This document shows, in pieces, positions 18,481 to 22,446 of a stretch of 64,000 bases of DNA; the stretch's first letter is position 1; each line of letters starts with the position of its first letter. This DNA comes from Candidatus Zixiibacteriota bacterium (GTDB lineage Bacteria > Zixibacteria > MSB-5A5 > GN15 > JACZUZ01). The notes under the pieces were generated by a model, which had not been told where the DNA came from, did no database searches, and saw nothing but the letters and a program-made list of their open reading frames with translations. Where the stretch lies: the NCBI GenBank assembly GCA_024280775.1, contig JAJRPM010000009.1, forward strand, positions 1 through 64,000, given 5' to 3'. Made by a program: the position numbers and the translations under genes.

Positions 18481-18834
18481 GCGCGAATATATCGGTGAGT
18501 GAATCCTCCGTCAACCCTAAATCCCTTGATTTCCACCATTTACGGCGAGAATGTCACTCGATATTCAGCGGATTAGATTATAGGACTGCGACTCAGTTTG
18601 AATCCTCCATTGCCGGGACTTTTGCGATCCCTGCGCCATAACGAAACGTGTCGCTAAAGGAATATGGGGCGCCGCCGATACTTCAACTAAGCTGTTAAGC
18701 GTTGAAACAGTATTCACGCAGACCAACGATAATAACCAGGCGATTTATGTTTCAATGTAATCGCCGGTAAGGTTGGTGTAGCAGTTGATAAACAGTAATT
18801 ACAGTACAGTAGGTACTACACAGAGTTGCGATTT
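18481..18834. other. Divergent intergenic region, no gene seen
   Basis: A 354-base gap between gatC and the histidine-kinase-like gene. It must hold both promoters, but no pair with good spacing was found on the plus strand: TTGAAA (18702-18707) is 20 bases from GATAAT, and TTGATA (18785-18790) 19 bases from TAGGTA. No RNA gene or repeat is recognised. Confidence 0.5.
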
Positions 18835-20073
18835 ATGAATCAAACTACTAAACAAGTGTCAAACCGAGAAGCCGGGAAGTCCAGGGCATCATTGAATGCA
18901 ATCATGCGTCATGGCGGGGCTACATTTCAGAATATTCTATGGAGTCCGATTGATAGACAACCGGCAGAACGCTCGGTGAACAACCACGGTTGTTCGTTGC
19001 CCATCACATTAGATCTCTTGAATCATAATACACTTGGCGCAGTTTCCAAGAGATTACTCTGTCACTCCCTACCCAACTATGTTCAGCCTATTGTTATCTA
19101 TGGAGCTACGCCATTGGTCTCTCCGGCTTTGGAAATAGAAACTCTAGTCGAAATTATTCAGGTAGGCAATTCAGTGGGAGTGGAGCCGCAGTTGCATACT
19201 ATTCGTATTACACCGAAACATCAGAACTCTGCAACGTCTGCAACCGAGAGCGGCTTTGACACGCTTCTGTTTTGTAGTGGACTCGCAGTTGGAAACAAAC
19301 CAGTAATCATCGGCGCGGCTTTCGCAGGTGAATCTGACAGGGATGATTTGGCGCGTGGCGCCTTACGTGGATTGTTGCGTCAGCTGTGCGCTGATCAAGT
19401 TGCCCTATCTGATATTATCCAGCGCTGCCTGCAGTTACCTCAGCTTGCAAGAGTCCTAATCGACGCTGACACAGGTTCAATGATTTGGCGCAATCAAGTG
19501 GCCTCAAGTCAATGGGATGCCTGCGCCGGACCCATAAAATATCTCGCACAAATCCGTAGTACCGCATCTGGAGCAGAAGTGAAAAGCGGAATCGGCCAGC
19601 GCCTGACTTTGATTACGCTACTGCGCCCCAAAACTACCAATGCCGATAGCGATCCCGCGCTTCCGTTTGCGAAGAACTACGAGCTTAGTGACGGTGTCCG
19701 CACGCGTCTAACCAAAGTAATTGAGGACACACTTTCCCAAGAGATAAACAGCGCCACTAATGACGAATCATCAAGAAGCTCAGCGCTGGGAGTAATCAAG
19801 TCTATGGAATCATTTGGAGATAACAATAGGAATGATATAGCGCACACAAATGAAGACGCAGATGCGCCTGCCGAAGAAGTTGAGCAATTCGAAAGCGCGC
19901 GACGCGCCTTGGAAGTAGCTCTACGATATCTGCCTGAGGGCGGACATTTGAAGCTGTCGCCTATCAATAGTAAAGGTGAGGCGCGTGTAGAGTCATTTGA
20001 TAGCGCAGGCGAAGAGACAGTGGATATCACAGTAAAGGACAGAGAGTTTCCCGATAGTGATGAGATTCTCTAG
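18835..20073 (+). CDS. Degenerate histidine-kinase-like signalling protein
   Basis: A 412-residue soluble protein without signal peptide or membrane helix; not a recognised family. Around residues 200-220 ARVLIDADTGSMIWRNQ looks like the first strands of a PAS domain. The C-terminal 90 residues look like a worn HATPase domain: RRALEVALRYLPEGGHLKLSP matches the helix and turn that follow the N-box of NtrB-type kinases (LPEGG), and FDSAGEE stands where DxGxG is expected. The phospho-acceptor His motif and the N-box Asn are missing, and an acidic linker (about 325-345) precedes the domain, so kinase activity is doubtful. It lies upstream of an NtrC-like regulator that is also degenerate. ATG 18835 is preferred over TTG 18826. 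Interpretation is inference. Confidence 0.6.
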   Translation: MNQTTKQVSNREAGKSRASLNAIMRHGGATFQNILWSPIDRQPAERSVNNHGCSLPITLDLLNHNTLGAVSKRLLCHSLPNYVQPIVIYGATPLVSPALEIETLVEIIQVGNSVGVEPQLHTIRITPKHQNSATSATESGFDTLLFCSGLAVGNKPVIIGAAFAGESDRDDLARGALRGLLRQLCADQVALSDIIQRCLQLPQLARVLIDADTGSMIWRNQVASSQWDACAGPIKYLAQIRSTASGAEVKSGIGQRLTLITLLRPKTTNADSDPALPFAKNYELSDGVRTRLTKVIEDTLSQEINSATNDESSRSSALGVIKSMESFGDNNRNDIAHTNEDADAPAEEVEQFESARRALEVALRYLPEGGHLKLSPINSKGEARVESFDSAGEETVDITVKDREFPDSDEIL

Positions 20074-20144
20074 TATGTCATCCCCGTGTTATGTGCGCCG
20101 TGAAGAATTAGAGTTAACCGAAGAAATGATATAAGAAACAATAG

Positions 20145-20162
20145 AATTCCAAGTTTGGAATT
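20145..20162. promoter_or_regulatory. Perfect palindrome AATTCCAA-GT-TTGGAATT, candidate operator
   Basis: An 8-bp inverted repeat with a 2-base centre, 63 bases before the ATG of the NtrC-like regulator. Such dyads are typical binding sites for Fis-type helix-turn-helix dimers, so autoregulation is plausible. A direct repeat TTTTGCAT occurs just after at 20184-20191 and 20197-20204. No -24/-12 sigma54 promoter is visible. Confidence 0.45.
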
Positions 20163-20225
20163 ATCAGTTGAAACAATAAACAATTTTGCATATGGATTTT
20201 GCATCAAACAGGAAGGGATAGCGTC

Positions 20226-21620
20226 ATGGTAGAATGTAGAGTGCTATTTGTAGATGATGATGAGTTAATCAGACGTGTGATGGAGCGTGGCTTATCAAAA
20301 CTTGTCACGCACGCCGCCTGCGTCGATAGTCCGAAAGAGGCGCTACTGACGCTTGACGAATCACATTTTGATATAGTGGTAACAGATTTGAGAATGAGCG
20401 ATCATAGCTCCGATTCAGACTTGACCGGCATCAGTCTCATCAAGACAATCAAAGAGCGTCACCCCGATACAGAAATAATCTTACAGACCGGATACGGCTC
20501 AATTGACAATGCGCAAAGAGCAACTCGCGCCGGAGCGTATGACTATATTGAAAAGCCATACAAGGTTGAGCGCTTGATAATGCTAATTGAGCGCGCATTA
20601 CAGCATCGTCGCTTGAGAAAAGAAGTAATGATCTTAAAGCAACAGGTAGCCTTTGACTATAGCTATGATGAGTTGCTTGGTGATTCGTTGGCTTCGTTGC
20701 GTTTCAAAGATGCGATTGCCAAAGCCGCAGAGAAAGACTCTTTCATTTTGATAAGCGGAGCAAAAGGAACCGGAAAGAACACCGCCGCGAAAATCATTCA
20801 TCATCATTCACTGCGCCGTAAATCTCCGCTGATTACTTTTGATTGCGCTGGAACACCTAAGAGGCTAATAGACAGCGAACTCTTCGGCGCCGGAAGTATT
20901 CAGTCAGGTTCGGCCACACCGCGCATAAGCGGTTTGCTTGCCAGAGCCTCAGGAGGGACTTTCATCCTGAAGGATGTAGAGGCCCTGCCAAAAGAAACAC
21001 AGCGCAAACTCGCTAGTGTGCTTCAGGCGGCCTTGAACTCCGACGGAAGCAACTCCGCTGAGGTGCATGATGACGTGCGCATAATTGCGACAACCAGCTC
21101 AGACTTACCTGCCGAAGCTATCGCCGGGGCTTTTTCCACTGAGCTATTAGGTTTGCTGGAGGTAACTACAATCGAAGCCCCGACTTTGGAGCAGAGAATC
21201 GATGACATTCACCCTCTTGCGAATCGCTTCATTCGCTCTGGCGAAGGAGACGTCAGTGAGAAGCGGCTAAGTAGCGCTGCGCTTGAGAAGTTAATAACCT
21301 ACACTTGGCCGAATAACATTGCAGAATTGAAAGCAGTAATACGTAGAGCCACAGCCCTGGCTCAATCAGTGGAAATCAGCGCTGACGATATTTTCTTTGT
21401 CAACCAAGGCGAGCAGGCCGAGACAGTTTCAGTAATCCCGACTCTAACAACCGGCGGGTCATTGGAGATGACATATCGCACCAGGATTCTCAAGTCGCTG
21501 GAAGATAACAAATGGAATTACTCGCAAACCGCTGTCGAGCTTGGCATCGGACGCACAACACTCTGGCGCAAGGTGAAAAAATATCACCTCACCAAAGAAT
21601 TAGTTGGAGAAAACAAGTAG
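20226..21620 (+). CDS. NtrC-like response regulator with degenerate AAA+ domain
   Basis: 464 residues: receiver (about 1-125) with the VDDD acidic cluster, phospho-Asp in VVTDLRMS, Thr in LQTGYG and Lys in EKPYK; AAA+ domain (about 140-370); Fis-type helix-turn-helix at the end (WNYSQTAVELGIGRTTLWRKVKKY). The ATPase is altered: Walker A is GAKGTGKNT, the GAFTGA sigma54-contact loop after ELFG is replaced by an unrelated segment, the Walker B Asp-Glu is Lys-Asp (FILKDVEAL), and the FREDLYYRL arginine-finger region reads FSTELLGLL. It probably binds DNA without sigma54 activation, as a repressor or sigma70 regulator like HupR or TyrR. AGGAAGG before ATG 20226 decides the start. Confidence 0.85.
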   Translation: MVECRVLFVDDDELIRRVMERGLSKLVTHAACVDSPKEALLTLDESHFDIVVTDLRMSDHSSDSDLTGISLIKTIKERHPDTEIILQTGYGSIDNAQRATRAGAYDYIEKPYKVERLIMLIERALQHRRLRKEVMILKQQVAFDYSYDELLGDSLASLRFKDAIAKAAEKDSFILISGAKGTGKNTAAKIIHHHSLRRKSPLITFDCAGTPKRLIDSELFGAGSIQSGSATPRISGLLARASGGTFILKDVEALPKETQRKLASVLQAALNSDGSNSAEVHDDVRIIATTSSDLPAEAIAGAFSTELLGLLEVTTIEAPTLEQRIDDIHPLANRFIRSGEGDVSEKRLSSAALEKLITYTWPNNIAELKAVIRRATALAQSVEISADDIFFVNQGEQAETVSVIPTLTTGGSLEMTYRTRILKSLEDNKWNYSQTAVELGIGRTTLWRKVKKYHLTKELVGENK

Positions 21621-21702
21621 CCTCAGGAGTATAAGTCACAGATAGGTGACAGCTACCTGATGTCAACCTGACACAGTGTCGCCTATTTAGCAAATGGAAT
21701 AA

Positions 21703-21740
21703 TATCGGGCTTCAGCTCCACTGAAGCCCGATAGAGTTTC
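21703..21740 (+). terminator. Strong hairpin after the NtrC-like gene
   Basis: TATCGGGCTTCAG (21703-21715) pairs perfectly over 13 bp with CTGAAGCCCGATA (21721-21733) around a CTCCA loop, followed by a short TTT. It probably stops or attenuates transcription before the GAF-like gene. A second imperfect stem (AGGTGACA with TGTCGCCT) lies just before it. Confidence 0.6.
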
Positions 21741-21786
21741 TCGATTGAAACTTTAACAATCCCTAATAGGAAGATCCAGTAGCTAA

Positions 21787-22446
21787 ATGAGACAGGCTCC
21801 AATTCCGACCCCTTCCAACTCTAGCTTAGATAGAGTTACCTCGTGTGACGTCGCATCTGTGGAGAGAGTATCTGCAATGGTTACAGCTAGGACTCAAACT
21901 CAAGGTAAGAATTATTTTTTTGACAGCCCGCTTTCGGAAATTGATCCAATCATATTAACCGGTAGTATTCCTGATGTTTTCGAAGAGTACGTACGCTCTC
22001 TTCCGACTGAGTTGCAACTAAGTCGAGGGGGCTTTGTAATTGCTCATAGCGGAAGCAAGACAGACGAGCGGTCGCTATCTTTGATAGCCATCAGTGACGT
22101 AGATACAGCATGCGCAGGTCTCGGGATTGCCATCCCGACTGACAATTCGGCGCTTCATGAAGTAAGTGATTCAAATTGTCTCAAGACAGTTACACCAGCG
22201 AAAGAACTGAAAGGGAATTTTGTTGAACGTCACGCGCTTATTGTCTCACCCGACGGATGCATGGGGATGTATCCATTGCAAATCGACGGATTCACCATAG
22301 GTGTGGTGACACTAAATTTCAGTAAAGCATCAGCCTGCTATGACGCATCAAAGGAAATCTCGCTAGCCAACGCCAAACTTGCTCAACGTATTTCCGAAGT
22401 GGCGCCACAAATCGTCTCAAAGGCTATCTCAGCTCTTGAGTTCTAG
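21787..22446 (+). CDS. Hypothetical protein with GAF-like C-terminal region
   Basis: 219 residues, soluble, no signal peptide. The second half (about 135-215) has the pattern of a GAF sensor domain: a His/Leu-Ile strand, a turn, CMGMYPLQIDGFTIGVVTLNFS as the central strands, and a final helix ISLANAKLAQRISEVAPQIVSKAI. The first half is not recognised. Position directly after the degenerate NtrC-like regulator, with the degenerate kinase upstream, suggests a third component of the same signalling set, though a strong hairpin separates it from the regulator. It ends 22 bases before the convergent mltG. Confidence 0.6.
   Translation: MRQAPIPTPSNSSLDRVTSCDVASVERVSAMVTARTQTQGKNYFFDSPLSEIDPIILTGSIPDVFEEYVRSLPTELQLSRGGFVIAHSGSKTDERSLSLIAISDVDTACAGLGIAIPTDNSALHEVSDSNCLKTVTPAKELKGNFVERHALIVSPDGCMGMYPLQIDGFTIGVVTLNFSKASACYDASKEISLANAKLAQRISEVAPQIVSKAISALEF

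Follow-up and report, generated by a model that had tools for sequence, protein, structure and literature searches.

Flagellar two-component systems that sense the export apparatus are known (PMC7064773); in FlrB/FlrC, FleS/FleR and FlgS/FlgR, a soluble kinase and an NtrC-type regulator are tied to the assembly of that apparatus (PMC7064773, PMC3930126). Another NtrC-family flagellar regulator, FlbD of Caulobacter, acts with FliX and apparently without control by a cognate kinase: it activates sigma54 flagellar genes and represses the early operon fliF through the promoter site ftr4 (PMC3930126). The NtrC proteins of Caulobacter and Rhodobacter capsulatus have no GAFTGA loop and act at sigma70 promoters (PMC10274813). 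Here we analyze a locus with likenesses to these systems, found in the first 64,000 nucleotides (nt) of contig JAJRPM010000009.1 of Candidatus Zixiibacteriota bacterium (assembly GCA_024280775.1), a stretch that we call the window. Three consecutive plus-strand genes encode a kinase-like protein (K), an NtrC-like regulator (R) and a GAF protein (G). We consider it fairly probable, from sequence comparison, that this operon is a flagellar two-component system that has been reduced several times to a promoter-occupying DNA-binding protein.

The three genes are real open reading frames, and the gene order kdsB/pyrG - K - R - G - mltG/ruvX is conserved across the window's order, with the module in the same position in most of 40 relatives. 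The comparison covers the window's family (f1), all four families of its order (f1-f4) and two other families of the same class (f9 and f10); G000 and G001 denote two genomes of the window's genus. A profile search with G gave a match in 77 of 132 genomes of the phylum, after which 60 further loci were added. K orthologues were assigned by synteny, and motif states were scored in 71 regulators. K-R-G is a conserved three-gene control unit in Zixibacteria and is probably part of the flagellum-building programme.

R has the architecture of a sigma54 activator: Pfam identifies a receiver, an AAA+ Sigma54_activat domain (PF00158, E = 1e-31), an AAA lid (PF25601) and a Fis-type helix-turn-helix (HTH_8, PF02954). 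The AAA+ domain lacks the GAFTGA loop that contacts sigma54, and it lacks what is needed for ATP hydrolysis, with a degenerate Walker B and an arginine finger lost from the segment FSTELLGLLE (in place of FREDLYYRL). The P-loop is intact, and so is the phosphorylation site of the receiver in the window and in G001 (D11, D54, T88 and K110); the receiver site is lost in G002 and in most f4 orthologues, the f4 proteins being without its Asp and Lys.

K of the window shows a parallel loss. Its phospho-acceptor segment reads LSDGVRTRL (residues 284-292) where orthologues have SHxxRNKL, so that His is replaced by Asp; the His is kept in f2, f9 and part of f3. The N, G1 and G2 boxes of a Bergerat ATPase are absent from K and present in f2 and f9 orthologues, and alignment with the HATPase columns is confined to a short C-terminal stretch. 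Single-sequence searches gave no Pfam or NCBIfam family match. The structural model (predicted local distance difference test 70, predicted template modelling score 0.59) combines a GAF/PAS-like region at the N terminus with long helices and a short remnant at the C terminus, and Foldseek returned PAS/GAF matches only, all non-significant, with no match to a HATPase fold. The link between K and HATPase comes from its syntenic orthologues, which match HisKA/HATPase_c when full-length, and not from the structure of K in the window. G by itself has no match in Pfam or NCBIfam; 13 of 18 orthologues match Pfam GAF, and the G model matches GAF structures (Foldseek, 3o5y, E = 2.4e-6). G-like GAF proteins (L107, L126 and other paralogues) also adjoin CheW-like or HDOD/receiver genes, the GAF family of G being wider than the K-R-G operon.

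These results bear on an original prediction, made by a model from the letters of the window. It had described a three-gene module in a row, a kinase-like protein without a clear phospho-acceptor His, a regulator without GAFTGA, Walker B or arginine finger, and a third, GAF-like protein; all of this is confirmed, the three motif losses by alignment. Its broader statement, that both halves of an NtrB/NtrC-type pair have lost catalysis and kept receiver and helix-turn-helix, is right for catalysis and for the helix-turn-helix, and for the receiver it is right within this genus, most f4 orthologues having lost it. "Degenerate" describes the motor motifs of R, not its P-loop or receiver. The Bergerat fold that structure prediction was to reveal did not appear in K of the window.

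Loss of catalysis is not peculiar to this genome. An L1 loop of the GxFTxA kind is present in 24 of the 71 regulators (G[AS]FT[SNT]A in 21, true GAFTGA or GSFTGA in only three, all from f9) and absent in 47. In f9 the system is complete as an outgroup, with a histidine kinase (HisKA, HATPase), a GAFTGA activator, a lone receiver and a GAF protein. In f9 and f2 the kinases still have the His and the N, G1 and G2 boxes, and they match HisKA/HATPase_c; most f3 kinases have a HATPase without the G1 box, and those of f4 and f1 have no HATPase. Regulators of f2, f3 and a few f4 carry GAFTSA or GSFTSA with Walker B and arginine finger intact, and the loop is lost in f1, most f4, f10, two f2 and three f3. 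On a tree of the flanking genes pyrG, kdsB, mltG and ruvX, in which the families are monophyletic, the L1 state changes at least 9 times, or is lost 14 times if loss is irreversible, the exact number being uncertain because many inner branches of this quick tree are weak. As judged from these motif states, catalysis loss is ancient and recurrent, common to genus and family and repeated in other families. The objection attached to the original prediction, that homologues with full motifs would indicate recent decay in one genome, is half right: intact homologues exist (L123, L124, L128), but the decay is neither recent nor confined to one genome.

Two candidate causes of the decay were rejected. 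The window's genome carries the sigma54 gene rpoN, as do all relatives with a completeness of 90% or more, and fliR is found in 73 of 79 genomes of the order, the window's included; since both persist, neither sigma54 loss nor flagella loss explains the decay. As a separate observation, the catalytically intact f2/f3 regulators read GAFTSA, GSFTSA or GSFTNA, position 5 of the motif having been altered order-wide before the loop was lost.

The DNA upstream of K carries two conserved elements. A match to the sigma28 (FliA) consensus (TAAAGTTT-N11-GCCGATAA; PMC2859248) is found there in all families examined, a promoter predicted by consensus match only; in the form TAAAG-N15-CCGATA it has 0-1 mismatch in 55 of 68 orthologous regions, compared with 0.5 expected from dinucleotide shuffles. 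Aligned upstream regions first suggested a palindrome, TGTNTCA-N3-TGAAACA, which starts 11-12 nt after the -10 element at most loci. At least 10 of the 12 positions of TGTTTC-N5-GAAACA are matched in 57/68 K-upstream regions (1.4 expected, again from dinucleotide shuffles). Many f4 loci (L086, L087, L090, L076, L106) have a weaker second site, AGTTTCAnnnTGAAGCA, about 41 bp downstream of the K operator. It seems to fall within the beginning of K and is possibly a tandem operator or conserved coding sequence. A further palindrome, GTCTTC-N3-GAAGAC at about -355 of K, was dropped because it lies in conserved gatC coding sequence.

The same putative operator recurs elsewhere in these genomes. Order-wide, 73 genomes contain 140 exact sites versus 17 for a reversed-pattern control; six genomes without a detected module, some of them incomplete assemblies, contain 1 versus 1. 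Some of the other candidate target sites fall inside coding sequence, and these were not counted as regulatory. A subset of sites reads TGTTTCA-N3-TGGCACA; seven genomes have it at a distance of 57-63 bp upstream of fliR (nine loci aligned), where it overlaps TGGCACA-N4-TTG, the -24/-12 core of a sigma54 promoter. Direct inspection of fliR upstream regions revealed the sigma54 element in nearly all genomes, and in f1, f2 and f4 the half-site precedes the -24 box by 3 nt. Among 86 collected sites, TTG at -12 spacing accompanies 18 of the 26 with right half TGG[CA]ACA and 1 of the 60 others; because the search pattern prescribed the half-site, its conservation is not independent evidence, in contrast to its position and to the -12 element. 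The half-site is absent from the module-less genomes G015, G018 and G029, which nevertheless keep fliR and a recognizable -24 region; it does occur in G075, an 84% complete assembly in which no module was detected. The window's genome carries fliOPQR-flhB-flhA (named from sequence; fliR by Pfam). Together, the sigma28 promoter, the operator and the fliR half-site point to a flagellar rather than a nitrogen-type regulator.

Two further sites were observed. An operator-like site between a DUF885-like lipoprotein gene and a pilT-like gene (L163 and L173, in G000 and G001) is a possible additional target, and in three species of genus g26 (L175, L176, L229) a composite operator/sigma54 promoter precedes a small open reading frame starting MSRIKYSKDHKKK.

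What could a regulator do that has lost its motor and kept its DNA-binding domain? We propose that, in the ancestor, a soluble histidine kinase would have phosphorylated an NtrC-type activator driving sigma54 promoters. In the line leading to the window and, independently, in others of the order, this activator would then have lost its sigma54-contact and ATP-hydrolysis parts and the kinase its catalytic domain. R would still bind the palindrome and act, most likely, by occupancy: it would repress its own sigma28-driven operon by covering the first transcribed bases, and at sigma54 promoters (that of fliR, for example) it would overlap the -24 region and block or modulate polymerase. Its oligomeric state would probably be tuned by ATP binding and the receiver (phosphorylatable in principle in the window), or by contact with K or G. 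In this scheme we infer R to be the protein on the operator and repression to be the effect, with K and G working through contact instead of phosphorylation. An operator over the first transcribed bases of the sigma28 operon and over the -24 element of sigma54 promoters suits occlusion, as in the case of FlbD at fliF; occlusion needs neither sigma54 contact nor ATP hydrolysis, which would explain why these were repeatedly lost with helix-turn-helix, P-loop and operator kept. With slightly less than even confidence, we suggest further that this locus was converted at least nine times independently, in one order, from an ATP-driven sigma54 activator to a promoter-occluding protein, with helix-turn-helix and DNA target constant; the ancestor would already have been a repressor as well, at overlapping sigma54/sigma28 promoters, and only the repressor half would have been kept.

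Several points weigh against the proposal of a promoter-occupying R. Some of the counted sequences are those in which the operator, the sigma28 element and the composite site had first been spotted by eye, and the counts are not independent tests. The K operator is one-sidedly weak in the window's own genus (in the window the right half is intact and the left half has diverged from TGTNTCA), and the fliR element within this genus is weak in G000 and different in G001. In f3, most genomes have the module but no half-site at fliR. Other predicted targets are heterogeneous, including secreted proteins and lipoproteins, and the regulon is perhaps not purely flagellar. The compared genomes were assembled from metagenomes, and among the apparent losses a few are truncations: the receiver losses scored for L059 and L104 come from truncated sequences and should be disregarded. 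Finally, the site is assigned to R by association, and another conserved regulator could bind the palindrome.

The alternative that survives best, possible but in our judgment unlikely, is that R is a GAFTGA-less activator like Rhodobacter and Caulobacter NtrC, bound to DNA with ATP, making no sigma54 contact and activating sigma70- or sigma28-type promoters, its receiver in the window's genus being phosphorylated by another kinase. The intact receiver residues of the window and G001 agree with this, as does a P-loop intact in all orthologues, and there is precedent in R. capsulatus NtrC, which needs ATP binding, not hydrolysis, together with phosphorylation (PMC10274813). However, the receiver losses in most f4 indicate that phosphorylation is not generally needed, and an operator over the first transcribed bases and the -24 element fits a blocker better than an activator. 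Somewhat more doubtful is the idea that palindrome and half-site belong to another flagellar regulator of K-R-G and fliR (a master activator, for example), with the targets of R lying elsewhere. It draws on the associative link just mentioned and on the 13 further sigma54-activator domains above the family cut-off in G000 (besides R and one weak hit), but it does not lead one to expect that module-less genomes would be almost without exact sites, nor that three of them would keep fliR and its -24 region without the half-site.

We regard as very improbable a slow pseudogenization, in which a dispensable system of no current function is eroding in many lineages. Catalytic motifs have indeed been lost repeatedly, the module is missing in a few genomes, and the DHp region of K is nearly unconstrained (29% identity between congeners); yet the frames are open order-wide, promoter and operator are conserved, the helix-turn-helix core is invariant in all regulators scored, and R of the window and G001 share 71% identity, with a nonsynonymous divergence (dN) of 0.22, well below a saturated synonymous divergence (dS > 3), and a dN of 0.05 in the helix-turn-helix. 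Judged from these rates, R is under purifying selection and is not a pseudogene. The least credible explanation makes the palindrome beside K a hairpin of the 5' leader RNA and not a DNA operator. Sequence inspection does place it in the transcribed leader, where it could fold. Against this, at fliR and other sigma54 promoters the same half-site stands upstream of the point where transcription starts, and in the K sites the left half mostly has C, G or A at position 4, which breaks the stem.

It is instructive to set the proposed occupancy regulator beside the described systems. The likeness to FlrBC, FleSR and FlgSR is one of architecture, seen in full in the f9 relatives; NCBIfam models of FlbD and FlgR score far below cut-off on R. 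Those three systems are catalytically complete sigma54 activators, whereas K-R-G has an eroded kinase, an eroded motor and an additional GAF protein. FlbD, which we count as similar for its apparent freedom from a cognate kinase, keeps GAFTGA (PMC10274813) and is partnered by FliX; K-R-G differs in its lost motor, in its partners (a kinase relic and a GAF protein) and in its sigma28-type operon. Caulobacter and R. capsulatus NtrC resemble R in the missing loop but keep an intact kinase and represent one lineage each, not a recurrence across an order; the Caulobacter protein also needs Walker A and Walker B. VpsR of Vibrio cholerae, which uses cyclic di-GMP, is an orphan outside any kinase/GAF operon, unlike R. 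The likeness lies in its being a GAFTGA-less, ATP-independent and phosphorylation-independent NtrC-like regulator (as cited in PMC10274813). The original prediction took such a degenerate switch to be undescribed, and to that extent it was too broad: GAFTGA-less, ATPase-independent NtrC-family proteins are already described (PMC10274813). The novelty lies in a single conserved flagellar locus that has eroded again and again across an order and has still kept its DNA-binding function. Searches of open-licence papers found none joining Zixibacteria and sigma54, and among the matches listed for Zixibacteria and flagella none concerns flagellar regulation, as far as titles and abstracts tell.

Coordinates of the features are given in Table 1. 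In the window, gatC, kdsB and pyrG lie on the K side on the opposite strand, and convergent mltG and ruvX lie beyond G. The gene surroundings of K-R-G are different in f9 and f10. In f9 (L123, L124, L125, L128) a 122-residue single-domain receiver, absent from the window's order, is encoded between R and G (for example L124:5454-5822, minus strand); in f10 (L119:5751-7090, L121) an extracytoplasmic function (ECF) sigma factor and a probable zinc-finger anti-sigma factor follow K-R-G on the same strand.

Table 1. Features of the K-R-G locus, in positions of the 64,000-nt window
Feature	Position	Strand	Basis or remark
Predicted sigma28 (FliA)-type promoter, TAAAG-N15-CCGATA	18655-18680	+	exact, 0 mismatches
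Putative operator, TGTTAAGCGTTGAAACA	18693-18709	+	12 nt after -10; identical in G001
K, degenerate kinase-like protein, 412 residues	18835-20073	+	open reading frame, alignment, structure model
R, degenerate NtrC-family regulator, 464 residues	20226-21620	+	open reading frame, Pfam, alignment
Walker A of R, GAKGTGKN	20757-20780	+	kept in 71/71 orthologues
L1 region of R without GAFTGA, SELFGAGSIQSGSATPRISGLL	20874-20939	+	alignment
Degenerate Walker B of R, FILKDVE for FLDE	20961-20981	+	alignment
Fis-type helix-turn-helix of R, ELGIGRTTLWRKVKKYH	21537-21587	+	core LGIGRTTLWRK identical in 71/71 orthologues
G, stand-alone GAF-domain protein, 219 residues	21787-22446	+	orthologues, fold

It is seldom possible to follow step by step how a sigma54 activator turns into a plain DNA-binding regulator. 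At this one syntenic locus the intermediates can be seen, from the complete system through the change of GAFTGA to GSFTSA and the loss of the kinase boxes to the loss of the L1 loop and of the receiver, with helix-turn-helix, P-loop, promoter and operator held through nearly all of them. Fis has been proposed to originate from an NtrC-like protein; if our interpretation is true, the K-R-G locus would be a natural replay of that kind of transition. It would also provide a predicted flagellar control circuit in an uncultured phylum, with an operator sequence that is open to direct in vitro test.

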